From Clytia hemisphaerica (lineage: Eukaryota > Cnidaria > Hydrozoa > Leptothecata > Clytiidae): DNA of 64,000 nt. The stretch is from positions 1,483,000 through 1,546,999 of the forward strand of contig CACVBU010000053.1 of NCBI GenBank assembly GCA_902728285.1, in the 5' to 3' direction. Shown here piece by piece: positions 725-58,915 of this stretch. The position numbers were made by a program, and so were the translations under genes. A model generated the notes under the pieces. The model was not told the origin of the DNA. It worked only from the letters and a program-made list of their open reading frames with translations, and made no database searches. Numbering within the stretch: the first letter of the stretch is position 1; every line of letters begins with the position of its first letter.

Positions 725-730
725 TTTATT
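725..730 (-). terminator. Poly(A) signal overlapping the F-box stop codon
   Basis: On the minus strand the stop codon TGA (732-730) runs straight into AATAAA (730-725), giving TGAATAAA. The 3' UTR would be only about 15-25 nt unless a later signal is used. Confidence 0.5.
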
Positions 731-1890
731 CATGAGACAAAGGTATAAATGTATTCTTTTCCAATGCTGTTACCAAGCGATCGCAAAGATTCTCTGCAGT
801 CTGACAACTCCCAATCAGAAGAAAGCTCCTGGGTAATTTCATGAATACTTTCTTTTGGGCTGTATATTGTTATCTTCCTCAAGGTAGAAATACAATTTAA
901 TTGCCCGACTTGAATTTTTGCTTCTTTGAAATTGCACATTGAATGATTAAAAGTAATTTCTTTCAAAACCATGACAGGTGTAAAGTATTTGAAAAATAGT
1001 GTTGTCATATAGTGATACCGTGGAGGCAATATCTCCAATTTTGTCAAATTTTTAAGCATATACAAGCTTTCCATTCCACCATCTTCAAATGATGATTCAT
1101 CAAACAAAAGCACTTGCAAATTAACAAGGTTTTCACAGAGTTTCTTTAATGATACATCAGAAATATAACAACACTCAAATTTTAGATAATTCAGCTTTAC
1201 CAACATATGAAGTGGTCTAAAGTCAAAACAGGTTTCAGGATCTGAGTGATGAGCCCTGTTATGACAACAAAGCTCCAGCTTAGTTAAGGTGCTTATTCTG
1301 CCAAGGATCTTGAGTGATGCAGAGTTAACAAACCATCCTTCCTCAATGTAAACCTCAGTAACTTTATTTTGACCATTCAATATTCGTTTTAAACCACTAC
1401 AATCATCTATATCATCAGTCTCTTGCCATTGGTTGTCCAAATCAGCATTTTTGAATTTCAATTTATTAAAAATTGGCACTTTAGATAATGATTTGCCATC
1501 TTTTAGGTAGCACCGATCAAAATGGAGCATGTTGATTTGATCAAAATGGGACAGTGCTAGTGAGGTACCATCCTCGAGATAAATTAAACTCAGGCATAAA
1601 ACATCAATACTTTCTTTGCAAAATGGTAAGACTAATTTCAAACTTTTCTGACAGTCTTGATTGGTTGTGAATGTGTCAGCAATAAATGTTAACCTTCTGG
1701 TGTGACAGAGATTTGTCAGAGGTTTACATTTAAGTTCCTCATATGAGTTTACTGGTAAACACACACTATGCCAAAGAACAGAGCACACAGTATTTTTATA
1801 AAAAGAATTACAGCATGCCAACAACTTCAAATCTTTACTTCCACAGAAGCTAAATATTTTGGAAAGTAACTCAAAAGGTAAATCTTCCAT
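730..1890 (-). CDS. F-box protein with leucine-rich repeats (single exon)
   Basis: An uninterrupted 386-residue frame. Residues 1-45 (MEDLPFELLSKIFSFCGSKD... then a Trp-containing LWHSVCL stretch) match the F-box pattern of 'LP.E.L..I..' followed by hydrophobic positions, the Skp1-binding module of SCF ubiquitin ligases. The rest has irregular leucine-rich repeats, for example around residues 195-210 (LKILGRISTLTKLEL), 230-245 (LVKLNYLKFECC) and 255-290 (LCENLVNLQVLLF, LYMLKNLTKLEIL), which would be the substrate-binding part. The likely role is substrate receptor of an SCF E3 ligase in cytosol or nucleus; the substrate cannot be read. The start is the only ATG that keeps the F-box at the N-terminus. 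No introns, unlike the other long genes here, so a retrogene is possible. The closest named family (FBXL) is an inference. Confidence 0.8.
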   Translation of the reverse strand: MEDLPFELLSKIFSFCGSKDLKLLACCNSFYKNTVCSVLWHSVCLPVNSYEELKCKPLTNLCHTRRLTFIADTFTTNQDCQKSLKLVLPFCKESIDVLCLSLIYLEDGTSLALSHFDQINMLHFDRCYLKDGKSLSKVPIFNKLKFKNADLDNQWQETDDIDDCSGLKRILNGQNKVTEVYIEEGWFVNSASLKILGRISTLTKLELCCHNRAHHSDPETCFDFRPLHMLVKLNYLKFECCYISDVSLKKLCENLVNLQVLLFDESSFEDGGMESLYMLKNLTKLEILPPRYHYMTTLFFKYFTPVMVLKEITFNHSMCNFKEAKIQVGQLNCISTLRKITIYSPKESIHEITQELSSDWELSDCRESLRSLGNSIGKEYIYTFVS

Positions 1891-2030
1891 ATTTATAAAA
1901 AGTACTAATCTATGGAGAAAAAAATTACAGCCAATTAATGAGCCAATCCAATATTACTGATTTTATTTTGTAATATCCTATCAAATTAAAATTAATTCCC
2001 TTAAGGTATTTTTTCAAAGAATTTGTTACG

Positions 2031-6890: not shown

Positions 6891-7564
6891 CCATTCAGGA
6901 TCCTGCCATTCTACAAGCCAGCAAAAACTAAATGACACTTGTAACTTAAGTTTCTTACCATCTTCCATCGAAAACAACCAAAAACATTGCTACTTCCCAA
7001 AGCCGGAGACCAAAACAAATTATCTTCCAAGATTATGGCGCCCTTTTGGATCTATTGTTAAGGCCATCTAAAATGGTGGAAAGAGTTGCGGAAAGACAAA
7101 GGTGCCCGCTGCTTTGAGGGTGGCAACGCCAAAACGCCCGATATGATCTTCCAACAGAAGGCGAGTTAATTGCCGCGCGAGTTACATCATGCACTCCACC
7201 GCAGCGCACAACGAAGCGTGTTTCAATGAATATCATTAATTATAAGAATATCTTATGTGCTTACCTTCAGTAAACTTTGAGTGCTTCATTGAAAATGAAG
7301 AAGGTAAGAAGATAAAAAATGCGCTGGATAATTTTCATTGTAACAGTTTGGTCAATCATCGCTGAAAGTTTGAAAAAGTTTTTCCGACGCAAAAAAAATC
7401 TCAGCCAATTAAAAGCACAGTGTGCTTATACTTACTATGTTTGCTAGATCGTCTAGGCTAGAAAAAATGCGAAAAGACACGAACGCCATTTTTTAATGAG
7501 TGATGTTATGATTTTTTTGATTGCGGCCGTGTACAGGAACTCGCCAAATGTTCCTAACTGTAAA
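6891..7564. other. Extra block 1 in segmental duplication copy 2
   Basis: Unique sequence of about 670 bp with a short GC-richer core (7033-7220). No convincing gene; frames here are short and start without a recognisable domain. Confidence 0.4.
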
Positions 7565-7920
7565 TAACAAGTTCATTAACAATTTTATTTTGAAGTTTGT
7601 TTTTAAAAACAGAACCCCTGTGTTATATGATAATCTCATTTTCTTAACTTATGGACCCATTTGGAAGTCTTTGTAATACAGATCATTTGGCAGTGTAGTT
7701 GCAGCCTATACAAGAATTGGAATCTAAAGTCTGAAGTCGTAACTCCTTGTCAGTGACCCCGCAGATAAGTTTTTAGTTGGCAGACACTGACTTTAGGTTG
7801 GTTTGGAAATCGTTTTATTTTGAAATGTAATCTTTATTTATTTGGATTCATCATGAAAGGTTCAAGGTTTGTTTACTTTTTATTTCAAAATATTTCATTG
7901 ATTTATTGAGCTGCAATAGC

Positions 7921-8939
7921 CAGTGAGGGTCTTATCGCGATTCTCAGATTTACGGAAAACACCAGCTTTTTGCTGATTTTTTCCTCGATTGCCCAAAACC
8001 CGTAACCTTTTTAGCTTGAGGGAAAAAAAAAATTAGAGTTTTTGGCTTTGCCAAAAAAAACGCCTAGTCAAAATTTTTTCATCTTCGCAGGATCCATTCC
8101 CAACCTCAAAATACATCTTTTTGTCTAGGGGTTTGTTTGGCAAATTCTTCCTTCGAAGAATATCCATCACTTTCGTTTTCCCCTGAAGACCGCGAGAGAA
8201 AAAATATTAGGGCCCGCGCTCTAGGCGGGCGACCTAGACTCCCTTTCGTTTTGTATAATTTTATAATGACGTATAAGGTAGCGTAATTCATGCAAAAATG
8301 ATATGATAAATATAATCTTTTTGTTTTTATTTTCAGGTATGCCGCCAAACATTGACGTCATCGTGTATGGATTCAGCATGAACAATAGGACCGACAGACT
8401 CGACAAAAGGAACAAACAATAAGACGACCCGAGAATCTTACGATGAGGGCGTTTTGTCTCCGCCTGATATCACGCCCACAGAAGACGCTGTTTAAAAAGC
8501 GGGGGTAAAAATAGTGAGTAATAGCTTTTGTAAGTGTTTATTTTGCGAAATATATAACCATTTTCTAATATGGTCTACAAACTAGCATTTCTAGAATTTT
8601 GATAATGAAAACTTAAATATATAATGAAGAAAAAAACAAACCATTTCAATTTTATTTATAAGTTTAACCCCCGGAAAAATTATGTATTACCTATTACATA
8701 ACTTTACATTTCCCGACTCGCTAACTCCCAGAGGAATTCCGATTGTAAACCCGATTGGTTAATTTCGGAACATCTTCATAATGGCAGATAATTTAGAAGT
8801 GTCTAGTGGAAAGGTCGTGTGAATTTTCAGATGTCAGTGGTAATTTTGTTGGTTGATGGCTTGTTGAATCTGGGAAGAAAAAAGTAAACAGGTATAGCTT
8901 TTTCTAACCAAGGATCTGAAGGATTCGAGCCACACTGAT
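7921..8939. other. Extra block 2 in segmental duplication copy 2, with an exon-like patch
   Basis: About 1 kb absent from copy 1. 8335-8500 is GC-richer and follows a pyrimidine tract ending TTTTCAG (to 8337). A 27-codon frame begins MPPNIDVIVYGFSMNN and stops at about 8420; a +1 frame continues to 8490. This may be a decayed exon; I recognise no protein family. Confidence 0.3.
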
Positions 8940-12340: not shown

Positions 12341-13473
12341 CCGTTACTAAGAATTAGAGAAAGTAGATTTTGATCAAAAAGAATAAAAGTGATTATAAAC
12401 GACCGTAAGCCCTTATTATCCCAACAAACTTTTGTATCATGTCTCGAAACCACGGTCAACTAAAAAGCTTTTCGCTGACGATCAAATAGAGAGATTGATA
12501 TCTCAGAAATAATCAGAAATCTGTTTTATTTTGACTTGTTGTTTAGTGTCATGAAATTGTATCATGCTTGAGAAAATTATTTATCACTGATGAGAATTTT
12601 TTCATTGGAGTGCTGACGGTTTGAGTCAGAAACAATGCATGTTTCAGTTGTCTTAAAAGAATCGAAACTGTGATTAACTGGACTGACTCCTTACTTTGGC
12701 TTTTAGTACATTTTCGGTTGTAAAAGCATTTTGTCAATGAATTTACATTCGTTACTTTACTAGCCGATAATTTATGTCACGCATGACTGTTTGAGAAATA
12801 ATTTAACTTTTGGCTTCTAAGGATGAAAACATGAAACTAGCCTGAGTTTCTTGTTATGTTGTCCTCGTGATGAACGGGGTCTACTGTAGTTTTGTCATTG
12901 TATTTGCGTATTTACATATCTGTCGACGCGTTTATTTACTCGGTAAGCTGATAATTAGAACTGTGGAGGGTAAAAGAATTCAAAAATTGACTCGTAAGAA
13001 AGACAGTGATGTAAGGTTATCAATGTTTCTGTTGCAAGTAGCTTTAACTAATATGAAAGTCCATTTTACTGAATAGTCTCTAAATGGGCACCCTTTACGG
13101 GGGGAGGGGCAAGGGGGAAATTGGGTTACGACAGCTTCATTCTTTTGCAGAAAAACTTTTTAAATTCAAAAAACTTTTCTATGCTGTTTAGGTGCAGCAA
13201 GTGAAAAATGATGGTAAGTTTTCGTCACTGGATTAATCTTTTTGGATGATTTCTTGCTCTCTGACTGTGTTAGCAATTTATTAGTGGGTGTTAACGGTGA
13301 TCCAAGAAAAATTCGTTTCAATGTTATTTTAAGTTTTTTGCGACCCCCTTCTTAAGATGTCCTGGCTTTATTACATATTTCTCTTTTCTTGAAAGATAAA
13401 ATTACAAAACAGACAGTGAGCAAGATTACAAAAATTGGCGTTACGGCAAGCGATGTAAAAAGGGAAAAAGAAT
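12341..13473. other. Gene-free stretch upstream of the receptor gene
   Basis: Contains the presumed receptor promoter, but I see no convincing TATA box. A hydrophobic 24-codon frame at 12,870 that reaches a GTAAGC is an unproven alternative first exon; the next acceptor leads to a stop. Confidence 0.4.
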
Positions 13474-13518
13474 ATGCCCAAAGACAAAAAGTGGAAAACC
13501 AAAATTGGTAATGCTTGA
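13474..13518 (+). promoter_or_regulatory. Short upstream ORF overlapping the receptor start codon
   Basis: A 14-codon frame beginning MPKDKKWK ends in TGA at 13,516-13,518, just past the main ATG at 13,511. An ATG-TAA start-stop lies at 13,453. If the transcript includes this leader, translation of the receptor would depend on leaky scanning or reinitiation. Confidence 0.35.
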
Positions 13519-16500
13519 TTTCAATAAGAAGAGAAAACTGGTCCTGTTGGTATTGGTTATAAGCACATGTTTAGAGGTATGTAAATCGACCGTGGTTGAG
13601 AGATTCAATGATGGTGAAGATGAGTTCGAAATCAAAGCAGGGTTAACATGTGATTTGTTCAACGCGTATGAGGTTTTTAAGCATGAAGATGGTACAAGAT
13701 CTTGTGCGTGTGACCAGGACGAGCATTTGGCGTCAATGGATGACCACGGCTCGCACATGAGATGTATCAAATTCAAAGGTAAGTTGCGCTTGGCTTAACT
13801 ACGGGAAGACTTTAGAAAGAAAATCAATACGCAGGTGTATACCGTATTACTCAAAATAAACGCCTCCGAATAAACGCCCCGGGCGTTTATTAAATTTTTT
13901 GATTTTTAGGAGGGGCGTTTATTCGAGGGGGAGGCGTTTATTCGAAGTAATACGCGGTATTTGAAATAAACAATGGATGTACTGCTAGGGTACGTTTATC
14001 ATCACCTCTAGGATAGCCCCCAAAGACAACAAATTAAAAAAGCGAATTTTTATTAGGGTTTCTTTTTGGCAAAACACAATATAGAAAATTTTGATAAAGT
14101 TTTTGGAATTTCAGTCCCTCAGGAGAACTTTATCCACAATCGTCTTGATTGAAATTTTCTATCAGTGAAGAGTCTTTGACAAGGCAATATTGCTACTTTA
14201 GACTATTGCAATGTCGAGTACTTAAAAAACCGAAAGCAAACCGTCCGAACTCGAGAAAAAGTTGACAAAATCTTGAAAATGGAGTTTTGGAACATAGTTT
14301 CGAACAATAAAGGCAAATGGGTCGATTTGACGAGTGAATTAGATGATGTGATTCGAATAAAAAGAGCTGGCAGACTGGTAAGTTTGTTTTGAAATTCAAT
14401 TTCGTACCCTAATGCCATGTTTAAGAGTTGTACTAATGGACGTGATACACTATGAATGGTATTTTCCTAACGGGGGTGAAATTTTGACCAAATTTTCCAG
14501 TGGGGTGGGGATCCCACCGGGTTTGTGACACTTGAGGCTTAAAATCGAATTCTTTGAAACTTATTATACTTGGCAAGTTACTTCTTAGCTCATGGAAGGT
14601 TAAATTTAAATTGCGCATTTTATTGTGATTTTTATATCTGAATTGAAATGACAGTACTTCATAGGCACCGAAGCACGTATGGTAATATTTTCTAGCTCTT
14701 TACTCAATAATTTCTCATTTAAAATGATGTTTTGATGTCTTTTAGAACGTGAGGGCCACAAAGAAGAAATACAAGGGCCAACTGATTAAAATCTCGATGA
14801 ACAAGGATACTTGTCTTTATTTGATTGGAGAAGGTGATATAACATGTAAGTGCATTACTCCGACTATATGAAGATACCGTAAAGGAGAAAAATTCCTTGT
14901 AAAAACAAAGTAAACCATCAAAGTTGCTATCCATAATGCATAGCACAACTACTTTAAATATGAAATTTGAATTTCGAAAATTCCGTATCTTTTTAGATCC
15001 CTTTGATTTCAACAAGATTTTTCCAGGGTCAATTCCTACAACAACTACCACCACAACCACCCCTCCAACAACAACGACCATCTCTCCAACTACTACGACA
15101 AAAACTACAACAACAACAACAATGGTCCCAGTACAAACAACAACGCCATCGACAACTCTTTACACACCAACAAAAAAAACATCAACACATACTAAAACAA
15201 GCAGCTTACAACCACAAACAACAACAGTATATAAATCATCAACAAACGCAATTAGAACATCCTCAACAGAAAACCATAACACATCTCCACTTATTCAATC
15301 TACTCAGTATTCAACAGACCAACCTGTCACCAGATTTCCAAACAACCAGAAAGAAACAGCCGATGAAAAAACGAGTTTCAACATTGGGTTGATCGCAGGC
15401 TTGGTCATCTTTTCAGTCATTGCATTAGCGTTGATTGTAGTGGTCTCCATATTGTGTAAAAGAAGGTAAGTCTGATCATACAAATGACACACGACGTTAA
15501 TCGAACCTTATTTGGACGTTATATGGACGTTTTTTGGACTTCAGTCATAGCATTAGCGTTGATTATAATTGCTTCCATACTCTGTAAAAAAGGTATAGTC
15601 TAAGATTTTACAGTGAAGTCTCCTTAACTCCAACCTCTACAACTCGAATGTCTTTTTAACTCGAACGACCATGAGACACGCACTTTTTTTCTTGTGTTGG
15701 TGGGATGGAGCATATTGCATTGCACCAACGCGAAAAAAACTTCTCGTGTCCCAAAGCCTCAACTGTTAACAAAAGAAAGAAACAAAAGCTTTCCAGACCG
15801 GGGTTTTTTATATTGACTATGTTGTTATCATAAAATGCCTCAAGGGAACTAACTTTGACGAAAAAAAAAAACAATTTATCGTCAAAACAAAATAAAAAAA
15901 ATTGCTGCCTTGCCAAAAAAATAAATTCCTCACCCAATTAAATCTTTTAAAGATTTTTGCTACTAGCCTAAATCAGTTCCCTTAGGGTAATACTTATGAC
16001 TGTCATTTCTTCAACAGAGCTAAAGCCCCAAGTAAACAAGCACAATCATCAATCGAAAACCCTATCTACACTGTACCTGCAACAAGCCAAAACGAGAATC
16101 TCTACTTATCACCGATTGACTTTATGAACGATGCAAAAATGTACTCAAAAAGCGGACAAGATGGCGCAAATATATACTCGGATATCGGCCACCTCGGTCA
16201 GGCTTCACGAACTGGCTCCTTTAACTCTCTTATTACAACATCAACAAATAACAGTCCACAAGTACAAAGACCTAGTCCCCTGGTCGTTTGTGATACCGAG
16301 AGTCCAGAAGGATTGTATGTAGGGTTATCCCAGAATGCGACAGTTGGACAGACAGAGAATAACTATCAAACATTGCCATCATCAAGTTTTACAGGTATTT
16401 TAGCAGTTAGAATGTATGTAACACACCTTTTCGACCGTAGCCGCCAATAGATCTTATCGGAGCTTTTGATTTTTCTAAAAAAGCGATGCATTGTTGGATT

Positions 16501-17282
16501 GTTTCGAGTGTATTACAATATAATTCCCTCGAGGAATTCCTAAGATATTTCTATTGTAATACACTCAAAACAATCACACAATACATCGCTTTTTTAGAAA
16601 AATAGAAAAACTCCGATAAAGTCTATTGCTGCGCGGGCATTTTTTGTCCGTTTTACCACCCTAAAATCGTCCCAGTCTTTTTTTTTGCACCTAAAGACAA
16701 TAAAAAAAAGTGTAAAAAAAAGGATTGGATCGAGTTTAGGGTGGTAAATTAAATAATATAATAACGCGTCTGACCACGTGACTACGGTCGAAAAGGTGTA
16801 TTCCATCAATATATTTTATTTTCAAGATCTGAAATTTGAAGGTCTGAAATTTCATTCCAATGCACCGAGCTTCAGAGCTTAAGTATATATACGGAGCGCA
16901 AATCGGTTGGTGGGATGCCAGCAACATAAAGGGAAAATGCAAAAGAAGTAGATTTTAAACTTTTTAGCGAAAATTAGTGAAGATCTGAAAGAAACAGAAA
17001 GTTCATCGATTTACGAAATTTTCTTCCTAAAGTAAAAACTTGATATAAATATATATATTTTCAATCTTACTAGGAAGCGAATATACAGCATTATCACCAG
17101 ACAATTCTGGCGCTATTGAAGCAACGAGTGAACCAATGTACCGTGAAGTATACGAAGATCCCAACAGTCCTGGTGGCAGTAGTAACACCTACATTGAACC
17201 TTCTCAAGGTGGTGGAAATTATCAATCATTGAATTTACAGAATGAACCACCTAGTATCTATCACCAGCTGCAGAACAACTAA
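13511..17282 (+). CDS. Mucin-like type I membrane receptor with tyrosine-rich tail, six exons
   Basis: Exons 13511-13778, 14202-14377, 14746-14845, 15027-15465, 16018-16394, 17074-17282; all GT-AG and all join in phase, giving 522 residues. Residues 1-26 are a signal peptide. 27-182 form an ectodomain with six cysteines (47, 65, 67, 85, 92, 171) that I do not recognise. 183-295 is a Thr-rich mucin stalk, 302-324 a transmembrane helix, then CKRR and a 195-residue tail. The tail has twelve tyrosines: NPIY at 342-345, ITIM-like SEYTAL (455-460) and SIYHQL (514-519), plus YxxL/YxxI sites at 381, 428, 444 and 503. Known families with such tails bind SH2/PTB proteins; signalling through phosphatases or kinases is inferred. 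The start is the first ATG giving the signal peptide. It converges on the MMP gene, 478 bp away. Confidence 0.8.
13840..13959. mobile_element. MITE of the TACCGTATTA...AATAAACGCC family, in receptor intron 1
   Basis: Inverted ends TACCGTATTACTC and its inverse 'gaagtaatacgcggta' enclose repeated 'aataaacgcccc' words. Related copies at 38,991 and, more distantly, 39,579. Confidence 0.75.
15540..15592 (+). pseudogene. Duplicated transmembrane-coding segment in receptor intron 4
   Basis: Repeats 15,415-15,465 with about ten changes; it would encode SVIALALIIIASILCKK against SVIALALIVVVSILCKR in exon 4. It is preceded by TTTTTTGGACTTCAG (acceptor-like) and followed by AAG/GTATAG (donor-like), so it could be a relic or an alternative piece of exon. 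It lacks the stalk-side half of the helix. Confidence 0.6.
16423..16799. mobile_element. Outer MITE interrupted by another MITE, receptor intron 5
   Basis: 'acaccttttcgaccgtag' (16,423-16,440) and its inverse (16,782-16,799) bracket the block, and the element at 16,446-16,627 is nested in it. Confidence 0.6.
16446..16627. mobile_element. Hairpin MITE of the AATAGATCTTATC family, copy 1
   Basis: Arms AATAGATCTTATCGGAG...CTCCGATAAAGTCTATT with an inner 'aaaaaagcgatg' and a central 'ttcctaagatatttctattg'. A second copy is at 63,744-63,934. Confidence 0.85.
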
Positions 17283-17759: not shown

Positions 17760-20700
17760 TCAAGGATCGCTGAGTCGGAGCAACGTTTTGATGTTGCTGC
17801 TTTGTATCAGCTCGTCCTCTGATTCACCGAGTTCTGGTATTTTTGGCGCTCCATCACATTCTAAGAGTCTTTCAACACCGTAGTCTGATTGTACGCGAAA
17901 TTTCCTGTGAAAAAAAGATAGATCTATGAGTAAAAAATAACGCCTAATAAACATAGATTTATAAAGTCCGAAGGACTAGATGTCGTGCCGTCGCAGGCAA
18001 AAAAAAGTGAATATCGGAAAAAAATTTTTACTATTGTTTTCGAAAACCCGCGAAGCTTCTGATTGGTCAAGCGCTGAAATTCTATTGTAATGTCACGTGA
18101 CTTTAGGATTTCCTACCTAACCACGGCACACTTTTCAGCAAAGGTACGCCATCTATGCTAATAACATGGGAACTTCCTAGAACCCGATATTGACAGTTGA
18201 TACGGTAAGCCGAATTTTCGGTAATCCAGCGTTAAAACTATTTTGACCGTCATTAGAGAAATCTTTAGAAAGCTTTCCGGATATGAAAAATAATAAATAA
18301 AACCAGTCGGCAAAGAAGTACTCAGTACTGAAAAAGTATATCTTTTACAGGGCTGTGAATTGTCTAACAAGAATCACTCTTAAGTTTTGCGTGAAAAATT
18401 TGTCTAACAAACCTTGTATCAAAGACATAAACTCGGTTTCGTGCAAAGAAAATTGTTTTGCTTTTATCAGGAGGTGAATATGCTGCATCGATGGACGACG
18501 GTAGTCCTCTCCATGCCCTTGAGATGTCTTTCGGGTATCCTGTTTTATTCAAAAAGAGGAAATAAACAGACGTTTTGCGAACCTTGCGTAGTGTAAAGGT
18601 AAAGCATTTCGCTACGGCGCGCAAGAACGTGGGTTCAATGCCAGGTCGGGTCGTACTAAAGACTTTACACTTGATACAAAAATTGTACTTAATGCTCAGC
18701 AATTAAGGGAAGGATAGATATTAGTCTGGGTAGAAAAAGTGGAGTTCTTGATTATCAAGTTCTCGAAACAGGAACCTTCGAGTATTATCTTCTTTGGTCA
18801 TATCAAAGGTTTAAAAAATGGTACTTGATGCCTGTCTGCTTAATTCTCAGTAATTCATGATATTCATGACGTAATGTTTTCTACGGAAAGACCCCAGTTT
18901 TTGCCAGTAGTGACAAATTTTATATAACTTTAAATTTTCCACTACTGGCTAAAACCAGGGTATTTCCGTAGAAAACATTACGTCATGAATATCATGAATT
19001 AAGAAAAGGATGGAGCAATCAAGGGAGAAAGAGTGGCGATCTTTCCTACGTTCACGTAGATCGCTATCGAAGGAAGAACCTTTGAGTTGTCTTTAACTTC
19101 AGTTGCAGAACTACTTACTTACCTATGAAGCTTTACAACTAGAAGTGACGGAAGTTGTGAAGCCTTTTACGGTCCTAATAAATCATGAAATCGGGACTTG
19201 AGTGCACTTTAATAGCAAGTTTCAATTTCTTGGGTGACTGTGATTTAAAGCCTCTACATATTTCTTTCTTAGTATACCTCTAGCAATCTATTTCAGATAG
19301 ATTGTTTAATGTTAGGAATTTTGGGTTCGAGTTTTTAAGCTTACTTCTATAAGTAAACCTTGTCAAGAATTTCCAGCTCAGATTGTTCTGAAAAGAGTTA
19401 ATATTACCTTTATCAAAGTCATTTTTCTTGTTGTTATATCTCCAGTATTGGGTACCCGCAAAGAAATACGTTCGTCTGTTACGTGGCCAAAACAAGGCTG
19501 CATCAATTTTACTGACGTATCTTGGGAAATTGAAGTTCAGTGGATCAGTAGTACCTTCACTGATAGAGTGAGGACCAGAAATATGATCAAAATTGTTGTA
19601 TATAACGTACCTGGAAAAAGAATAAATTAGGAAAATCATTTCAGTGGTTTGTCAAAAATTAAGGTCACGGGTTTATTTTGACCGTAAAGTGCGATACCGT
19701 AGGCATGTACATAATTTGCCAAAGCAAACCATGCAAGTGAAATCTTATGTACAGGCCTACGGTATCGCATTTAACGGTCTAAATAAACACTTGCTTAACC
19801 TCGCTAATATCCAGGAAGTCGCCGTTTGTCAAAAGCTCGTGGATTTTAAAGGGAGTCATACAAAATAGAAAAAAGAGGACGGGTTTTAAATGATGAAACT
19901 AACCAACCTTTTTCCAGAGAAAACAATGAGATTTTTCTTTTTACCAAAATCATTCGCTAATACTGCATCAATATTGCCAGGGACGTGTCTCCTTTTGAAA
20001 TAGCTATATCTGTTAAACGTTGGTAAAGAATTTCTGTAGCCTAAGAAATACATTTTGTTTGTATTTGTGAAGCCTATTTTAAGACCATATCGTTTAGCGT
20101 CAAAGATAGCTGTCGTAATGCCAGTTGGACAACGGCGATTGGATTGCGATTTAGATTTTGATTGTGATTTAGTTGTGGTGATTGTCGTGGTCGGGGTGGT
20201 GATTGTCATGGTCGGGGTGGTGGTTGTCGTGGTCGGGGTGGTGGTTATCGTTGTGGTTGGGACAGTCGTTGTTGTCGTAGGAATGGTCGTTATAGTCGTT
20301 GTCGTGGTTGGGATGGTGGTTGTTGTTGTAGGGATGGTGGTTGTCGTGGTCGGGGTGGTGGTTATCGTTGTGGTTGGGACAGTCGTTGTTGTCGTAGGAA
20401 TGGTCGTTATAGTCGTTGTCGTGGTCGGGATGGTGGTTGTTGTTGTAGGGATGGTGGTTGTCGTGGTCGGGGTGGTGGTTATCGTTGTGGTTGTGATAGT
20501 CGTTGTCGTGGTTGTAGTAGGAATGGTCGTTGTAGTCGTTGGGGTAGTCGTTGTCGTGGTTGGGATGGTCGTTGTTGTTGTAGGGATGGTGGTTGTCGTG
20601 GTCGGGATGGTCGTTATCGTTGTGGTTGGGACAGTCGTTGTTGTCGTAGGAATGGTCGTTGTAGTCGTTGGGGTAGTCGTTGTCGTGGTTGGGATGGTCG

Positions 20701-23700
20701 TTGTTGTTGTAGGGATGGTGGTTGTCGTGGTCGGGGTGGTGGTTATCGTTGTGGTTGGGATAGTCGTTGTCGTGGTTGTAGTAGGAATGGTCGTTGTAGT
20801 CGTTGGGGTAGTCGTTGTCGTGGTTGGGATGGTCGTTGTTGTTGTAGTGGTCGGGGTGGTGGTTGTCGTAGTTGTTGTAGCAGTAGTCGTTGCTCTCGTT
20901 GTTGATGGAGTTTTTGTGACTTCGAAAGTATCGGTAGTGTCGATCAGATCTTGTTCAGTAATTACTAGGGGTGGTTCTGGTGTAGGGGTGGTCGTTGTAG
21001 TTGTGGTTGCAGTGGTCGTTGTAGCAGTTTGAGGCACATCCTTTGCACCTAAGGAAAATAGACACGGTATATAAATTGACCTCTGAATGAGATAAGGACT
21101 CCAATAGCATAAAGTCAGATTACTTAGCTTTAAGATAAACTTCTTAGATTTTTCTTCATAATAAACATGATAACACTCATAACAAAGTAGGGGGCCAAAC
21201 CTTAGGATCCGTGACAACTTTTCTAGGACTCAACCACATAAATTTTATTCAAAAGTTGAATGTATTTAAATACATTTTCTCGGGGGGGTCCGATGCTTAG
21301 GCCTGGCAAAATTTTTTAGGGGGCAAGTTGGGAAATTACTCATTGGAAAATTAACCTTTTTTGACCCCATGAAAAATTGTCCTTAAGGGCGATGCTTTGG
21401 AAATCATTTCCGCTATGTAGCATTCGCGACGTCGCATTTTCTATGTTCATCCTAGGAAAATTAATTGGTCAGCCCCGATGACCCTTCAAATCCCTTTTTT
21501 CCAGCCGCCGCAACTTAAGAGTTTGGTTTTTTTATTCCGATTTCTAAAGTTTTTATCCGATCGGGTTAAGTTTGGTCTCCCGATCTGTGTATTTACTCTC
21601 AAGCTTTTTTAGGGCAGTGTTCCGGTTGGGATACGCTTTCAATTCATCCAATCGGGCTAAGTTTGGTTTCCCGATATGTGTTAAAAACAATTCAATATGG
21701 CTGCCAAAGCGGTGCTTTTTCGTTCGTTCGTTGTTTATCTCTTGCCAGCTTTTATTTTATATACAATCATTATATTTTGTTGAAGTGGCTTTTAAACTTA
21801 TAACTAAGGAAGATACAACACTGGAGTTAGATTATTAGGATGTTCTTTTCTTTAAGGTATGAAGATTTTAACTTATTTGCTCAAGTTTTTTCCTGAATTG
21901 TGAGTTATTGTTTTACCTGCTAGACCTCATTATTTTGTAGCATGAAAACATATTTTTTCATTTTGGACTTGAATATAGAGTAACCACCAACAATTGCTGG
22001 AATTTGATGGAGTGTATATATATTACAGTTCACAGCTTAATTATCTGATTATTCTTATTCACAAAAATAATGTTTTCTCGAACTTGAGCGTTTTTTTTTA
22101 TTTGATACATTTATAGACATTTTATATGCTTGTTCTTCTGGACAATTGGAGATAATATTGATAAAGCGTAAATGGAAATTGTTCAAGGATATTAAAGTAC
22201 AGCTCCTATGTAAATTCGAGAAGGAACGAAGTTCTTAATCAAATTATATTGACGCAAAAATGATTTTTTTCTAGACTTGCGTTTTTCACTGGTAGTTACG
22301 TTTGTTTTTTCGGACCGACTTGGAGATAATTATCATAAAGCGTAAATGGAAATTGATCAAGTATATTAATAAAGTACCTCCTATGTAAATTTAAGAAAGA
22401 ACGAAGTTCTTCGTCAAATTATATTGACGCAAAAATGATTTTTTTCTAGACTTGCGTTTTTCACTGGCAGTTACGTTTGTTTTTTTGGACCGACTTGGAG
22501 ATAATTATGATAAAGCCTAAATGGAAATTGATCAAGTATATTAAAGTACCGCTCCTATGTGAATTTGAGAAAGACCGAAGTTCTTCATCAAATTATTGAC
22601 GTAAAAATGATTTTTTCTAGACTTAAGTTTTCACTGTGATTTGAAAGCAGACACTTGCATTAGTTCTTTTTGACTTGGAGATAATTAGGATCAAGCGTAA
22701 ATGGAAATTAATCAAGTATATATTTAAAGTGCAGCTCCTGTGTAAATTTCAGAACGGCTGAAGTATTCTTCATCAAATTATTGACAAAAATTATGTTTTT
22801 CTAGACTTGCATTTTTTCACTGTGATTTGATGGCGAACATTTATACATTCTGGACTAATAATGATAAATAATAAATGTATATAAATGGATTGAATATTTT
22901 TTAATAGATAAATATTGCACGTTTAAGCATATATATTTAGGCTCAGGTTAGGGAAAATACAGTACAATAATTACAGTCTTTCTGGGACGACACCAGGTAT
23001 GCTAAACATAAAACTTTAAATTTGAATAAATTTTAGATGTCAGTGTAAACCTTATTTTGAATTTTTCATTGCTTATTATAAAAACATGTAGTTTTAAGCT
23101 AAACTATTTCTCTGCAGTTAAGATGAATAAGAATGACACCATTTTAACTTTTACTGATTTACAGCATCTTTGTTTTTGAAACTTTTTTGATTTTTTGTCC
23201 AGCTTGAGCTTGAATATAATTATAAGTCTAAGCTTAGTAAAAAATAATAAGTGTATAAACTTTTTGTGGTTTTTGATAAGTACAGTATGCCTTGCATTTA
23301 ACTTCCTTGCAAGGATTTTTATTTTCTTGAATCTGTTGTTGATGTAGCCTTTTGTTGCTGTTCGTCTGTATAATTTGATGATTTTTTTACTCTCGTTTTA
23401 GTAAATCATATCAATTTTTATTAACAACATATCTTTCTAATCATATTAAAGCAATTTAGGCTGACCTTCCAGCGTAGCTGGTTTATTTATCTTATATTGG
23501 CACTAACTTTAAATATCGAACTTAGTATAAGTCAATTTAGGAAGATCGCTTTTATATAGCTAAAAGGCTTGTTACCGACTTCAATCAATTCTAAACACAA
23601 CCCTTTCCGACAATTTGAGCTCATCTATAGAGCAACAAATTATATGCCTGAGGGAATTGCTATTCTAGCTTTTATAGAGCCTTCAATTCTCTTACGAATA

Positions 23701-48318: not shown

Positions 48319-49695
48319 TTATTCTTGCTCCAGTTTCTTCTTATAAGTCTCTTCCAAAGGCAAAACACAAATCATCGATAACGCCGTCAAACCAATCAAA
48401 AACCACATTACTCCAAGATAAGATTCATAAATTAAAAATTGAAATAAAAAAGGTATGAACACTTGTGATATTTTACCAACACTGGATATCATCCCAGTGG
48501 CCGAACTGCGTACCACTGTTGGATAAGCCTCCACAGTAAGCAGGTAACCATAAGTGCCAAATATTGTGGCAGTGCTATTAAGGATGAGTAGCGAAGCAAT
48601 ACTTAGCCAGTCTGGTATACAAAATAATTGTAAGATATAACAAATCAGGTTTAATGCGAATCCAACTTGCATGAACAATTTTCGTCCGTATAATCCTAAC
48701 CGGTACATTATCAGGGATCCTGGGACCATACTTAGAGATATAAGGAACGATTGTAAATGTGCTGAGTCAGGTAAAATATCCGTGCAGTTATTTGTTGAGT
48801 TTGTGGCGATTGTAGCTGAAAGATATTGTTTATGATGCACTGGTTTACAAACTGGATTCTGCAATCTGTAGGTTAACAAGAAACTCGAGCCGTAGAAACA
48901 AGTCATCGCTCCAATCCATATGATCAAAAACAAACATGTCGTTATAGGGTATGTCTTTAAGACGTATCTGTAACTAGCTTTATTTTTAGATTCTCTGCAC
49001 TGTAGATCCAGGTTGGACGGTATTTGGACGTCATTTGTACGTGCAAAACGATGTAAAATCTCCATGAGTTTCTTCTCCTTATTTGTGGTTTGTAAATAGC
49101 GGAAAGACTCTGGAACTATCTTCAATAATAGAGCGAAAAATAAACCTGGCGTGCATAGGATGAGCGTCAGTACACGCCAGCCGTACCGATTCAAAACAAG
49201 ATATGAAATCAGGTAAGCGTACATCATGCCAAATATAAAACACAATGCAAGAGCTAGAGAATCCTTAGAGCGATGTTTCACTTTGACATATTCGGCGGTG
49301 AGAGTGGTAGTAATCAGGTAAGTTGCTGTAACACCTATTCCCACGAAAAGTCTTGTTAGACTGAAAAACGTTGCAGATTGACTTGAAGCGTTCAAGAAAG
49401 CAAAATACAACATAAGTAATACTGCGAATACCAAGCTTGCTTTTCGACCACGTTTATCACTCATGTAACCAAAATATAATGCACCAATGTTGAGTCCAAG
49501 GAAATAGGCAGCTCCTGTTAAAGCGGCTTCAAAGTTGGTCAATCCGAATTGGCATTGTATGTAAGGTGCAACATTGGAGATTAACACTTGGTGAGCACCT
49601 GGTACAAACCATTGCAGTGAAAGAGCGATAACGACTTGTATAGTAAATTTATTTGACTTTGAATTTTCTAAAACATCCTCGAAAGTCAAAGCCAT
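48319..49695 (-). CDS. MFS transporter 1, SV2/SVOP/SLC22-like, intronless
   Basis: 458 residues from the start MALTFEDVLENSK; an ATG 39 nt upstream lies only 10 nt from the TATA-like box and is not conserved in the other two copies. Predicted twelve-helix carrier. The MFS loop signature GYMSDKRGRK lies between helices 2 and 3 (77-85), PESFRYL (195-201) corresponds to PESPRW/FL of SLC22/sugar-type carriers, RLGLYGRK (332-339) is its repeat in the second half, and VEAYPTVVRSSATG (388-401) is typical of SV2/SVOP/SLC22. The luminal/extracellular loop (about 280-312) has Cys283 and Cys304 and two N-glycosylation sequons (NST 299, NCT 303). It should move small organic solutes across a membrane; the substrate is not readable. 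Nearly identical to the copies at 53,625 and 58,916. Confidence 0.9.
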   Translation of the reverse strand: MALTFEDVLENSKSNKFTIQVVIALSLQWFVPGAHQVLISNVAPYIQCQFGLTNFEAALTGAAYFLGLNIGALYFGYMSDKRGRKASLVFAVLLMLYFAFLNASSQSATFFSLTRLFVGIGVTATYLITTTLTAEYVKVKHRSKDSLALALCFIFGMMYAYLISYLVLNRYGWRVLTLILCTPGLFFALLLKIVPESFRYLQTTNKEKKLMEILHRFARTNDVQIPSNLDLQCRESKNKASYRYVLKTYPITTCLFLIIWIGAMTCFYGSSFLLTYRLQNPVCKPVHHKQYLSATIATNSTNNCTDILPDSAHLQSFLISLSMVPGSLIMYRLGLYGRKLFMQVGFALNLICYILQLFCIPDWLSIASLLILNSTATIFGTYGYLLTVEAYPTVVRSSATGMISSVGKISQVFIPFLFQFLIYESYLGVMWFLIGLTALSMICVLPLEETYKKKLEQE

Positions 49696-49743
49696 TTTCT
49701 TTCTGTTTGAAAACCACCACGTTCTCCTCAACACATCACTCTC

Positions 49744-49753
49744 TTATTATAAA
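49744..49753 (-). promoter_or_regulatory. TATA-like box of transporter 1
   Basis: TTTATAATAA on the minus strand, 49 nt upstream of the ATG, conserved in all three units (also 55049-55058 and 60339-60348). In units 1 and 2 the LINE 3' end starts about 50 bp further upstream. Confidence 0.5.
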
Positions 49754-49800
49754 TGCAGTTTGTCATGCATGATCTATTTCATCTATGATATTAAATTAAA

Positions 49801-51178
49801 TTTTTTTGATTTATAGAAGTGTATTTCTCAGGTCTATTGACCTCTATGAAACAATCTTACATCTTTACAATTTATAGATCTTATCATATCATATAAACTA
49901 ATCTTATCATTCCATTCGTTTGTCAATTCTAGTTTGAATTTCCCTACGGACGGTGCATTTAGAACATTGGTTGCCAAACCGTTCCAAGTATCAATGCTCC
50001 TATAGTAAAGTGAATTCGTTTGGTATCCTCTAATGTCGTCTTCAGCGAAATTCCTCTTTAATTCGAGATTGTGCTTACGGTGAGGTCGATTTCAAAGAAC
50101 GAGTTTCTGACATTGGGAAGATTTATCGTAGACATTAAGATGTTTATATACTTCCACCATGTCCCCGATTTTACGCCGGATCTTGAGGCTGGGTAGGTTC
50201 ATGACTCGTAAACGTTCTTCATATGAATGGTTTCTATAACCACCGACAAGTCTTGTGGCCCTACGTTGGACACTTTCAATTACATCAGAGTGTTTGATCA
50301 GCCGTGGAGACCAAACAGCTCGCGCGTACTCAAGGTGAGGTCTCACAAATGCAATGAAAAGTGTGCGGAGCATCTCGGGAGAAAGGAAGTCGAAGCTTCT
50401 GTTAATCAATCCAACGATCAAGTTAGCCTTCTTGATCTTGGTGTAGATGTGTTCTTCGAAATTCAATTCACTATCAATAATCACTCCAAGATCCTTCTCT
50501 TGATCAACATGTTCTAGGACAGAGCCAGCGATCTCATAAGGATGTGCATCTTGAATGTTCCAGAATTTCCCTAGTGTCAACACGTGGCACTTGTCAGGAT
50601 GGAATTTCAACAACCAGTCACCAGACCACTTTTCCATTGCCTCGATATCGTGCTGAAGTCTAATTGCATCTTCAGCGTTATTTATTTCTTCAACAAGCTT
50701 TGTGTCATCGGCAAAGAGGAAAATTTCTGAGTTGGTAACTTCAGCTAGATCATTGATGTAAATAACGAAAAGGAGTGGACTTAAGACACTTCCTTGTGGT
50801 ACACCACTTGGCACCTGGCATTTCTTAGATAACTTTCCATTGACCTTCATATATTGGTAACGATCGGACAAAAATTCTTTCATCCAACCAAGTACCCTTC
50901 CTCTGATACCATACGCCTCGAGTTTTCTAAGTAATCTGCGATGTGGAACGGTGTCAAATGCCTTTGCGAAGTCGAAATAGATTACGTCAACAACCTTATC
51001 ATTGGATATCGAGTCCGCTCATTTGTCTAAGTAGTGAAGTAGTTGTGTCACTGTCGATCGCTTACCCATGAACCCATGTTGTTTTGTTGATAGCAATTTC
51101 TCATTCGTGAGGTGTTCCATTATTTGTTTCTTTAGGATTCTTTCCATTACTCTACACGCAACTGATGTTAAACTGATA
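49801..51178 (-). mobile_element. 5'-truncated non-LTR retrotransposon (CR1/jockey-like) fragment 1
   Basis: Minus-strand reverse transcriptase from RT block 1 (AISLTSVACRVMERIL) through AKAFDTVPH, SGVPQGSVLSPLLF and FADDTKL, then the usual C-terminal region. The frame is broken by TGA at 51,019-51,021 (TGT in copy 2) and by TGA at 50,092-50,094 (CGA in copy 2). No endonuclease or ORF1 remains. The 3' end is an A-run next to the transporter promoter. Inactive. Confidence 0.9.
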
Positions 51179-52225
51179 GCATATTTACCCCATTGAAATA
51201 ATTAATCATCTCGTGATCTCTCTTCAAAACTCCAAACTTTTATAGCAAACCATACAATTTTTGGATACTACCTTCATCTTCTAAAATTTTTGGAATAATT
51301 TTTTCTCAAATATTATAGTGCTCTGAATGATCTTTTCAAAGATAGACATTTTTTTGAATTTGAAGCATTGGCTTAAAAAATGGCAAGAAAAACAAACATT
51401 AGTGCACACTTAAAAGAGAATACACTTTAAGCAGCAAGGGCCATCCAGTTGTGTGTTTATTTTTTTCTGAGAAATGTTCCCAGTTAAAAGCTGACGTCAT
51501 TGGGAAACACCCAAAACGTCAACTTTTAGCCTTAAAAAGGCTATTTCTCAGCATCAGGTGGTCGAAACAAATGACCTAATTTTTTGACATTTTTTTCTTT
51601 ATAAGAACATCCAAAATTTTTGAAGCCTTAGGATGTTCTTAACTTTTTGAGCTTTAATCTTAACATGTTCTTATTTTCACCATTTTGTGAGAATTTTTGT
51701 CCATTTTCTTAAGAAATTGGCCATTTTAGAGTCTTTAAAGCCTTAAAATGTTCTTAACTATGTTCTAACTGATATAGTTTTATCTATGAGACAGTTGGTA
51801 GCTTTAAAGATTTGATTTTCAGACTTCAAGAGAGGCAAATTCATATTCAAGATTTGCTCTGATCGAATTTCCGAATTTTCGACTCTGGTCTGTTTCAGTG
51901 GTTTCAAGTTGGTAAAGAAGAGCTGTTTCCAAAAAAACAAACTGAATACGCTCTTTTCTTAAAAAACTCATAGCTGGAAAAATTAAATAGCTATGACACC
52001 TTTTTTCCTCGGTACATGTTGTCTTCTATAAGGAACTTTAATTTGGCCCCAAGCCTGAGTTTTTTTCCAGAGAATTTCAGCCTCAAAGTTCCTTATTTAT
52101 TTAGCTGCTATGATTGGATTTGCCGAGTATGTAACTTAGGTATAAGTATAACAATGGACTACAGTACAGAAATAGACATTATTGAATGTTGTTTCGTCAA
52201 TATTTTGTCATCTTTTTCTTTAGTT

Positions 52226-52301
52226 TCCAACAGTGGTACGCAGTTCGGCCACTGGTATGATATCTAGTGTTGGTAAAATATCACAAGTGTTCATACCTTT
52301 T
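52226..52301 (+). pseudogene. Antisense 76-bp fragment of transporter coding sequence, unit 2
   Basis: Plus-strand copy of the transporter segment for PTVVRSSATGMISSVGKISQ and the next residues (source in unit 2: 53754-53829, minus), with one visible mismatch. It lies about 1.45 kb downstream of the gene in opposite orientation and abuts the hairpin MITE at 52,304. The 86-codon frame running through it into the MITE is not a gene. Confidence 0.9.
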
Positions 52302-52303
52302 CT

Positions 52304-52507
52304 AGCAAAAAAGTATACTACAACAAGTCTCTTACTCGAACACATAAAGAAATACGGCCACTTAAAGTTCAAAATTCTGTCAGACTCCGTACGGTTTAGG
52401 CAAAATGTGACGTCAATCGTACTCTATCTAACAGAATTTCAAACTTTAGATGGCCGTATTTCTTCGTGCGTTCGAGTAAGAGACTTGTTGTAGTATACTT
52501 TTTTGCT
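52304..52507. mobile_element. Hairpin MITE next to the transporter fragment, unit 2
   Basis: AGCAAAAAAGTATACTACAA...TTGTAGTATACTTTTTTGCT with arms of about 80 bp ('cttactcgaa', 'aagaaatacggcca'). Confidence 0.9.
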
Positions 52508-52904
52508 CAGAATTTCATGCCCTTTCCGATGGTCTCATTCATTTTTTTCAAATTCGACTTAAAAAAACGTCAATTTTTACCCATTTTTTACCCTTACAGT
52601 TTTGTCTGTAAACGTCAGTCTTTTAGTCATAAAAACTTTTGCCGGGCCTAATTCGCGGGCCCCCTCTCAAAAAAGTCTTAAAAACCTTCCTACTTTCGAA
52701 CTAACCACATGCGGTTGCGTCGCATAAAAGATGTTACGGATCCTAAGGATTGGTCCCCTACTATTAGGCTTTTGTAAATGTGAGCAAGTTCAAGCTTAAC
52801 TCTCTGTTTCTCATCTTATTTACTTATTCTCAGTGTAAGCAGTTCCTTAACAATTCCTTATTTTCAGTGTCCCTTATAAAAAAAGGTGTAGAGGTTATAT
52901 CATT

Positions 52905-53167
52905 CAGTGCCGTAGCAACTGGGGGGGGGGTGGCAAGGGGGGCTATGCTGCCCCAATAATTTTTTCAAAAATGGTTATTTTGTAAAATGCAAGTTTTTCT
53001 TTTTTAATTTGTCATAATTGTCTTTATGTGCATGTTTTGAGTGTATTTTTAAGCAATCTAGAGCTCAAATTTTTTAAATCCCCCCCCTCGGGCCAAACCA
53101 TGGTTGGCCCTGGCGGTGTCACTAAACTTCAGCTCCCCCTAATATGAAAATGTTTCCTACGGCACTG
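52905..53167. mobile_element. hAT-like MITE of the CAGTGCCGTAG family, unit 2
   Basis: CAGTGCCGTAGCAACTGGGG...CTACGGCACTG; TCATT lies on both sides. Unit 1 has the uninterrupted site ('ggttctgtcatttgataa', about 48,017-48,034). Confidence 0.85.
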
Positions 53168-53540
53168 GTCATTTGATAATATTAAAAGACTGAAAGTTTC
53201 ATAAGCCCAGATTTTCCGAAGGAGAATTGTGCCTCAGTTGTATGGGACAAGCTGGAGTTTTTACAAGCTCTTATGTGATTTGGTTGGTCGTTAAGATGTA
53301 ATAAAAATAATCTCGTTCTTTTTCTAAAGAACGCGTCATCTCTATCACTTCAAATAACCAATTATTGAAGTATCTTATAAAAATTCCAGCTCATCCCGGG
53401 AAGTTGTATAGAACAAATACACAACGGGTTAAAGCAGGGTTGGTTAAAAGGAATTTTGGTAGAGCATGATAGAAAATTAAAACTCTTTTTGACATGTGAT
53501 ATTGTTAACTTTATTATTTCAATTTTTTTTTTTTTTTGAA

Positions 53541-53565
53541 ATTCTATTCTATTCTATTCTATTCT
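53541..53565. repeat. (ATTCT)5 downstream of transporter 2
   Basis: Five ATTCT units at the site that has three in unit 1 and seven in unit 3. Confidence 0.85.
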
Positions 53566-53624
53566 AGCTATAACAGTGAAGTATTGTAACAGTCCGAAGT
53601 TTTTGGCCAGTCAACTTTAAATCT

Positions 53625-55001
53625 TTATTCTTGCTCCAGTTTCTTCTTATAAGTCTCTTCCAAAGGCAAAACACAAATCATCGATAATGCTGTCAAACCA
53701 ATCAAAAACCACATTACTCCAAGATACGATTCATAAATTAAAAATTGAAATAAAAAAGGTATGAACACTTGTGATATTTTACCAACACTAGATATCATCC
53801 CAGTGGCCGAACTGCGTACCACTGTTGGATAAGCCTCCACAGTAAGCAGGTAACCATAAGTGCCAAATATTGTTGCAATGCTATTAACGATGAGAAGCGA
53901 AGCGATACTTAGCCAGTCTGGTATACAAAATAATTGTAAGATATAACAAATCAGGTTTAATGCGAATCCAACTTGCATGAACAATTTTCGTCCGTATAAT
54001 CCTAACCGGTACATTATCAGGGATCCGGGGACCATACTTAGAGATATAAGGAACGATTGTAAATGTGCTGAGTCAGGTAAAATATCCGTGCAGTTATTTG
54101 TTGAGTTTGTGGTGATTGTAGCTGAAAGATATTGTTTATGATGCACTGGTTTACAAACTGGATTCTGCAATCTGTAGGTTAACAAGAAACTCGAGCCGTA
54201 GAAACAAGTCATCGCTCCAATCCATATGATAAAAAACGAACATGTTGTTATAGGGTATGTCTTTAAGACGTATCTGTAACTAGCTTTATTTTTAGATTCT
54301 CTGCACTGTAGATCCAGTTTGGACGGTATTTGGACGTCATTTGTACGTGCAAAACGATGTAAAATCTCCATGAGTTTTCTCTCGTTATTTGTGGTTTGTA
54401 AATAGCGGAAAGACTCTGGAACTATCTTCAATAGAAGAGCGATAAATAAACCTGGCGTACATAGGATGAGCGTCAGTACGCGCCAGCCGTACCGATTCAA
54501 AACAAGATATGAAATCAGGTAAGCGTACATCATGCCAAATATAAAACACAATGCAAGAGCTAGAGAATCCTTAGAGCGATGTTTCACTTTGACAAATTCG
54601 GCGGTGAGAGTGGTACTAATCAGGTAAGTTGCTGTAACACCTATTCCCACGAAAAGTCTTGTTAGACTGAAAAACGTTGCAGATTGACTTGAAGCGTTCA
54701 AGAAAGCAAAATACAACATAAGTAATACTGCGAATACCAAGCTTGCTTTTCGACCACGTTTATCACTCATGTAACCAAAATATAATGCACCAATGTTGAG
54801 TCCAAGGAAATAGGCAGCTCCTGTTAAAGCGGCTTCAAAGTTGGTCAATCCGAATTGGCATTGTATGTAAGGTGCAACATTGGAGATTAACACTTGGTGA
54901 GCACCTGGTACAAACCATTGCAGTGAAAGAGCGATAACGATTTGTATAGTAAATTTATTTGACTTTGAATTCTCTAAAATATCCTCGAAAGTCAAAGCCA
55001 T
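53625..55001 (-). CDS. MFS transporter 2, intronless tandem paralogue
   Basis: 458 residues from MALTFEDILENSK, same length and motifs as transporter 1 (GYMSDKRGRK, PESFRYL, VEAYPTVVRSS, loop Cys283/Cys304). I see only scattered conservative differences, for example ILEN/VLEN, STTLTAEFV/TTTLTAEYV, SKLD/SNLD and ITTNST/IATNST. The frame is intact, so probably functional. TATA-like box at 55049-55058. The start matches the ATG shared by all three copies. The LINE 3' end lies about 105 bp upstream of the ATG, as in unit 1, transcribed in the same direction. Confidence 0.9.
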   Translation of the reverse strand: MALTFEDILENSKSNKFTIQIVIALSLQWFVPGAHQVLISNVAPYIQCQFGLTNFEAALTGAAYFLGLNIGALYFGYMSDKRGRKASLVFAVLLMLYFAFLNASSQSATFFSLTRLFVGIGVTATYLISTTLTAEFVKVKHRSKDSLALALCFIFGMMYAYLISYLVLNRYGWRVLTLILCTPGLFIALLLKIVPESFRYLQTTNNERKLMEILHRFARTNDVQIPSKLDLQCRESKNKASYRYVLKTYPITTCSFFIIWIGAMTCFYGSSFLLTYRLQNPVCKPVHHKQYLSATITTNSTNNCTDILPDSAHLQSFLISLSMVPGSLIMYRLGLYGRKLFMQVGFALNLICYILQLFCIPDWLSIASLLIVNSIATIFGTYGYLLTVEAYPTVVRSSATGMISSVGKISQVFIPFLFQFLIYESYLGVMWFLIGLTALSMICVLPLEETYKKKLEQE

Positions 55002-55105
55002 TTTTTTCTGTTTGAAAACCATCACGTTCTCCTCAACACATCTCTCTCTTATTATAAATGCAGTTTGTCATGTATGATCTATTTCATCTATGATATCAAA
55101 TTAAA

Positions 55106-57492: not shown

Positions 57493-57568
57493 TCCAACAG
57501 TGGTACGCAGTTCGGCCACTGGGATAATATCTAGTGTTGGTAAAATATCACAAGTGTTCATACCTTTT
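57493..57568 (+). pseudogene. Antisense 76-bp fragment of transporter coding sequence, unit 3
   Basis: Same as the unit-2 fragment but with a different single mismatch (GATAAT for GATGAT), so each copy has kept near-identity to the gene while changing independently. Abuts the MITE at 57,571. Confidence 0.9.
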
Positions 57569-57570
57569 CT

Positions 57571-57774
57571 AGCAAAAAAGTATACTACAACAAGTCTCTT
57601 ACTCGAACACATAAAGAAATATGGCCACTTAAAGTTCAAGATTCTGTCAGGCTCCGTACGGTTTAGGCAAAATTTGACTTCAATCATACTCTATCTAACA
57701 GAATTTCAAACTTTAGATGGCCGTATTTCTTCGTGCGTTCGAGTAAGAGACTTGTTGTAGTATACTTTTTTGCT
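57571..57774. mobile_element. Hairpin MITE next to the transporter fragment, unit 3
   Basis: Orthologous to 52,304-52,507, with the same AGCAAAAAAGTATAC ends. Confidence 0.9.
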
Positions 57775-58821: not shown

Positions 58822-58856
58822 ATTCTATTCTATTCTATTCTATTCTATTCTATTCT
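58822..58856. repeat. (ATTCT)7 downstream of transporter 3
   Basis: Seven ATTCT units; five in unit 2, three in unit 1. Confidence 0.85.
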
Positions 58857-58915
58857 AGTTATAACAGTGAAGTAGTGTAACAGTCCGAAGTTTTTGACCA
58901 GTCAACTTTAAATCT

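Follow-up and report, generated by a model that had tools for sequence, protein, structure and literature searches.

The 64,000-nucleotide stretch of the Clytia hemisphaerica genome analyzed here (the window; GenBank assembly GCA_902728285.1, contig CACVBU010000053.1, forward-strand positions 1,483,000 to 1,546,999) carries on its plus strand a six-exon gene at 13511-17282, whose 1569 coding nucleotides specify 522 amino acids with no internal stops. The product seems to be a single-pass type I membrane protein, a predicted cell-surface receptor, and the residues found three positions after its cytoplasmic tyrosines (+3) form a non-random signature. The exons and the parts of the protein that they encode are:

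13511..13778, plus strand: exon 1, signal peptide (~residues 1-26) and start of the ectodomain; Cys 47, 65, 67 and 85
14202..14377, plus strand: exon 2, middle of the ectodomain; Cys 92; an in-frame acceptor option at 14184 would add 6 residues
14746..14845, plus strand: exon 3, last part of the ectodomain; Cys 171
15027..15465, plus strand: exon 4, Thr-rich stalk (182-302) and transmembrane helix (~303-325); an in-frame acceptor option at 14997 would add 10 residues
16018..16394, plus strand: exon 5, membrane-proximal tail; Y345 (NPIY, also YTVP), Y357 (YLSPID), Y370, Y381 (YSDI), Y428 (YVGL) and Y444 (YQTL)
17074..17282, plus strand: exon 6 including the stop; Y457 (SEYTAL), Y476 (YREV), Y480 (YEDP), Y493 (YIEP), Y503 (YQSL) and Y516 (SIYHQL)

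The predicted gene is taken as real because introns, phases, codon-usage score and donor matches agree. All five introns are GT-AG, the exon phases are compatible and the frame is kept throughout. With codon usage trained on four other stretches of the window, the frame of the model was stop-free and scored best of the six frames for all six exons. Equally high scores were obtained by 0 to 0.8% of 2000 length-matched non-coding pieces, in a test that was lenient in that these pieces were allowed to contain stops. At the donor sites, 7 to 9 of the 9 positions agreed with the consensus. For exon 2, every acceptor listed between 14012 and 14173 yields stops, and for exon 4 the pyrimidine tract scored 11/15 at acceptor 14997 versus 9/15 at acceptor 15027. 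Depending on the acceptors chosen (14184 or 14202, 14997 or 15027) the protein has 522, 528, 532 or 538 residues, and the tail is unaffected by this choice. Upstream of exon 1, a pyrimidine-rich candidate acceptor ends at ~13395, and ATGs at 13453 and 13474 precede the signal-peptide ATG (13511) within 13396-13510, so that short upstream open reading frames are possible if this segment is transcribed.

Hydrophobic windows at residues ~9-30 and ~303-325 correspond to a signal peptide and a membrane helix, respectively. Residues 1-26 have a basic start followed by a hydrophobic core and were read as the signal peptide. The ectodomain holds six cysteines, at the positions listed above, and is followed by a stalk of 121 residues (182-302), among them 45 Thr, 14 Ser and 11 Pro. 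As the membrane helix is without charged residues, partnering with a charged adaptor inside the membrane would not be expected. The tail, which begins at K326, comprises 197 residues and 12 tyrosines. This recovers the single-pass mucin-stalk architecture that an earlier note, made without database searches, had proposed (six-cysteine ectodomain, Thr stalk, one helix). The note had counted the twelve tail tyrosines correctly and given the tail 195 residues, a length corrected here. Its numbering of Y457 in SEYTAL and Y516 in SIYHQL was reproduced from the gene model, and the NPxY motif that it reported is present as NPIY at Y345. No kinase or phosphatase domain was matched in Pfam up to an expectation value (E) of 5, and the protein is accordingly not placed among the receptor tyrosine kinases or phosphatases.

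The ectodomain had been described beforehand as matching no known family, and no convincing match emerged from Pfam, NCBIfam or the sequences of the PDB. Scanned alone against Pfam up to E 5, it gave CD59 as the sole match (E 0.09, under the cut-off), while exons 1, 2 and 3 scanned singly gave none and NCBIfam likewise none. Four PDB sequence matches (best E 0.11) were rejected, with at most one cysteine aligned in the three alignments shown. The whole protein matched TMEM154, DAP10, RIFIN, SIT, TMEM132_C, ETS_PEA3_N, CD99L2 and RAB3GAP2_C in Pfam at E 0.0015 to 0.35, all under the cut-offs. TMEM154 scored 18.8 of the 30.3 bits required, DAP10 16.6 of 22.9 and SIT 13.5 of 27.6, and these three matches lie in the stalk, the helix and the start of the tail, reaching no further than residue 348; the match to RAB3GAP2_C covers residues 101-220 (E 0.35). 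Exon 5 alone matched RNA_pol_Rpb2_3 at E 0.2, also under the cut-off, and the tail matched no PDB sequence.

Within its own genome (417,433,876 bases, 951 contigs), which was searched with the ectodomain exons and not with the tail, the exon 1 translation found only itself at E ≤ 1e-3, and exons 2-3 found themselves and three matches at E 3.6 to 5.4 that were taken as noise. Pattern matches to exon 2 in genome_contigs (85) and to exon 1 in viral_contigs (5) were in no case confirmed. The window holds no convincing further copy apart from a helix fragment in intron 4, the remaining matches being at E 6.8 and 7.8 only, and the best match in 20 flanking pieces of 10 kb, covering 100 kb on each side, had an E of 0.47. 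Relative to Pfam, NCBIfam, PDB sequences and its own genome the ectodomain thus appears to be an orphan, and relatives may exist elsewhere. No receptor of such make-up was found named in the literature, as judged from titles, the beginnings of abstracts and passages.

The +3 residue is a main determinant of SH2 choice. It is I, L, V, M or P for 11 of the 12 tail tyrosines, compared to a shuffle mean of 2.85, and none of 20,000 shuffles reached 11; this grouped class was picked after the tail tyrosines had been inspected. The same class occurs at 1 of 8 tyrosines elsewhere in the protein and at 17 of 59 in three other open reading frames of the window (Fisher P 8e-4 and 7e-5, respectively, versus the tail). 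Tyrosine density is moderately high (12/197; P 0.017, assuming a 3% rate). Altogether eleven patterns were tested in the tail and their P values are uncorrected; the grouped +3 signal would survive correction for eleven tests, single classes less surely. YxxP was found four times (Y345, Y357, Y480 and Y493; P 0.009) and YxxI/L/V seven times (Y381, Y428, Y444, Y457, Y476, Y503 and Y516; P 0.0014 for the I/L/V/M/F class). YxxPxD was found once, at Y357 (YLSPID; P 0.03), as was NPxY, at Y345 (shuffle mean 0.09, P 0.09). Sites of the type YxN (Grb2-type) and YxxM, the immunoreceptor tyrosine-based switch motif and the canonical immunoreceptor tyrosine-based activation motif (ITAM) are absent from the tail. 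The +3 statistics support the richness in phosphotyrosine-type motifs that had been claimed for the tail; this signal is stronger than, but different from, that of the immunoreceptor tyrosine-based inhibitory motif (ITIM) on which the earlier note had placed its emphasis.

Taken together, the product is probably a receptor lacking intrinsic enzyme activity, whose tail would serve as a mixed SH2/PTB docking platform with wiring rather like that of Draper/MEGF10. It looks like a signaling receptor of a known sort with an unfamiliar outer part and not like a proven immune inhibitor. In this scheme the Thr-rich stalk, presumably O-glycosylated, would hold the ectodomain off the membrane, and binding of a ligand by the ectodomain followed by clustering would allow a Src-type kinase to phosphorylate the tail. 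The four YxxP sites would then dock Crk/CrkL-type SH2 domains, and Y357 might also suit RasGAP, whose preference is pYxxPxD. The seven YxxI/L/V sites would dock SH2 domains of the Shp2/Csw and Syk/Shark types, while NPIY would recruit a PTB adaptor. The likeliest output would be adhesion, engulfment or cell-contact signaling, with both positive and negative arms, as Draper has. We infer phosphorylation, partners and output of the tail, and the output may be of either sign. Passages of the cited papers give pYxxP as a canonical Crk motif (PMC4841779), describe expression of Crkl, Grb2 and Shp2/Csw in Hydra as well as the occurrence of Dof, with predicted Crk, Shp2 and RasGAP sites, in Hydra, Acropora and Bilateria (PMC7260276), and place a Syk-like gene and HTK16/Shark in invertebrates (PMC10253181).

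Several points weigh against the docking platform. The case is built on sequence, and its proposed partners are borrowed from other animals. The +3 class was chosen post hoc, and the P values of the eleven patterns are uncorrected. Neither a canonical ITAM (x6-8) nor a Grb2 YxN site is present, and it is uncertain where exons 2 and 4 begin.

It is conceivable, though doubtful, that the protein is a lineage-specific receptor in which an ectodomain of new fold is combined with a built-in docking scaffold (Crk/RasGAP at YxxP, Shp2/Syk at YxxI/L/V, PTB at NPxY). Such a protein would unite the roles of a receptor and of a Cas- or FRS2-like docking protein and would be switchable between positive and negative output. 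p130Cas, FRS2 and Dof similarly carry several tyrosines that are actual or predicted sites for Crk, Shp2 and other SH2 domains, according to passages of PMC4841779 and PMC7260276. Here, however, the sites lie in the tail of a transmembrane receptor, and no SH3, PTB, DBB or ankyrin match was obtained in Pfam. If the tail works as read, the gene would exemplify a lineage coupling an unrelated ectodomain of its own to the common phosphotyrosine machinery (Src, Crk, Shp2, Syk/Shark), a pattern claimed for allorecognition receptors in a passage of PMC12065747. It would also offer a single receptor gene with twelve mapped sites. The gene is on these grounds a good candidate rather than a surprise.

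Draper, MEGF10 and CED-1 are receptors that likewise cross the membrane once and carry NPxY and YxxL-type sites in their tails, as a passage of PMC8092387 describes them. For Draper the same source describes a tail with NPxY and an ITAM that is phosphorylated by Src42a and read by Shark, and an ITIM in one isoform that binds Corkscrew; the ITAM and the NPXY have separable functions in the part of PMC4503800 consulted. The protein studied here shares the tail NPxY at Y345. It differs in that no EMI or EGF-like match was obtained for its ectodomain in Pfam up to E 5, and in having a Thr-rich stalk, four YxxP sites and no canonical ITAM spacing. Draper is by analogy the nearest working parallel, whereas by domain make-up the protein is not a Draper.

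An activating, Draper-like receptor is accordingly a rival that we hold to be rather unlikely. In it the YxxL pairs Y428/Y444, Y444/Y457 and Y503/Y516 would serve a Syk/Shark-type kinase with tandem SH2 domains as ITAMs of wide spacing and NPIY would bind a CED-6/GULP-like adaptor, in engulfment or wound response. The tail does contain three YxxL/I pairs at a spacing of x6-12, compared to a shuffle mean of 0.05 (P 5e-5), and the co-occurrence of NPxY and YxxL-type sites in Draper and MEGF10 (passages of PMC8092387 and PMC4503800) and the reported Syk-like and Shark genes of invertebrates (PMC10253181, in part) are consistent with such a role. The canonical ITAM, Yxx(L/I)-x6-8-Yxx(L/I), is however matched by no pair, so that the protein does not classify as an ITAM receptor, and the EMI and EGF domains of Draper were not found. 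ITAMs with wider spacing can work. The regularity of the pairs is also doubtful: the 13-residue tyrosine spacing is borderline (reached in 245 of 5000 shuffles), with a 36-residue spacing equally frequent, and an apparent internal duplication NYQ(T/S)L...SxYxxL (NYQTL...SEYTAL versus NYQSL...SIYHQL) was rejected as not significant, as 393 of 500 shuffles did as well.

The inhibitory receptor emphasized in the earlier note is distinctly unlikely. It would use Y457 and Y516 as ITIMs to recruit a phosphatase of the SHP2/Corkscrew type and so damp a neighboring activating pathway. Both SEYTAL and SIYHQL indeed fit the consensus (S/I/V/L)xYxx(I/V/L) in the tail of a single-pass receptor, and this part of the claim stands. 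The emphasis does not, because two sites are within chance expectation: the shuffle mean is 0.60 (P 0.12, 20,000 shuffles), and when the -2 residues were redealt among the 12 tyrosines at least two ITIM-like sites arose in 31% of 10,000 trials (P 0.31 given the tyrosine contexts). Nine further tyrosines with I, L, V or P at +3 would be left unaccounted for, Y457 and Y516 also lie within loosely ITAM-like YxxL pairs, and the four YxxP sites suggest Crk-type adaptors. Passages of the cited papers report that candidate receptors for allorecognition in Hydractinia and Botryllus carry ITIMs (PMC12065747) and that Shp2/Csw is expressed in Hydra (PMC7260276), which would suit an inhibitory role.

The spacing of the two sites bears on this reading in both directions. 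SHP2 activation is described as spacing-dependent in parts of PMC7078208 and PMC10231330, and Y457 and Y516 are 59 residues apart versus 25 for Y223 and Y248 of PD-1 by residue number. PD-1 is, however, argued in a passage of PMC7078208 to work mainly via one site per molecule, with SHP-2 bridging two PD-1 molecules through one site on each, and wide spacing would then be compatible with inhibition. The 59-residue gap is thus not decisive by itself. PD-1 and other mammalian ITIM receptors resemble the protein in their ITIM-like tail sites and differ from it in that no immunoglobulin match was obtained here (Pfam up to E 5), in the 59-residue spacing and in an ITIM count that is not above chance. 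The Alr proteins of Hydractinia and the FcoR proteins of Botryllus are also invertebrate receptors with tyrosine motifs in the tail, the FcoRs carrying ITIMs and core YxxI/L/V in the passages of PMC12065747 consulted; the lack of an immunoglobulin match sets the studied protein apart from these as well. Alr and FcoR form multigene families, whereas for the gene studied neither the window nor the 100 kb on each side contains a convincing second copy. A linked multigene family was thus not found in the window, the flanks or the genome-wide search with ectodomain exons, which did not include the tail.

A structural membrane mucin whose tyrosines serve chiefly for trafficking, through YxxPhi and NPxY signals read by clathrin adaptors, is a very improbable alternative. 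The seven YxxI/L/V sites, the NPIY and the Thr-rich stalk could suggest it, but four YxxP sites are incompatible with YxxPhi and twelve tyrosines are many for sorting alone.

The other features recorded in the window are:

730-1953, minus strand: F-box frame (Pfam, just above the cut-off)
15540..15613, plus strand: partial tandem copy in intron 4 of the helix-end coding stretch and splice donor (~15412-15483)
19280-19651, minus strand: hemopexin repeat (Pfam E 8e-9)
19886-21229, minus strand: Thr-rich long frame of tandem repeats, adjoining the hemopexin repeat
48322-49743, minus strand: transporter frame (Pfam), with two further copies in the window
50092-51018, minus strand: reverse-transcriptase-like open reading frame
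55170-56375, minus strand: reverse transcriptase frame (Pfam)

The copy in intron 4 is one base short at the exon end, so that a transcript spliced from this copy to exon 5 would be out of frame; it is probably a relic. In intron 5, the segment 16487-16609 forms an inverted pair with 63761-63883 (79% complementary over 123 bases), perhaps derived from a mobile-element family. No clustering of related receptors was apparent, with this protein as the only query for most of the flanks, and Rfam and tRNA scans of the window each gave 0 matches. Among seven flank frames scanned there were an immunoglobulin-domain frame, an F-box/leucine-rich-repeat-like frame whose two matches were both under the cut-offs, a reverse transcriptase, a gene for GrpE and three frames without a match. 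The immunoglobulin frame is of the I-set type (Pfam E 4e-19) and lies ~12 kb upstream of the window, at 7220-8371 of flanking piece L003. The Thr-rich frame and the hemopexin repeat possibly belong to one gene. The transporter frames lie in three tandem units of ~5.3 kb at 48319-60311 on the minus strand, with transporter blocks 90-98% alike and MFS-like open reading frames of 474, 480 and 410 residues, the first of which was scanned against Pfam.

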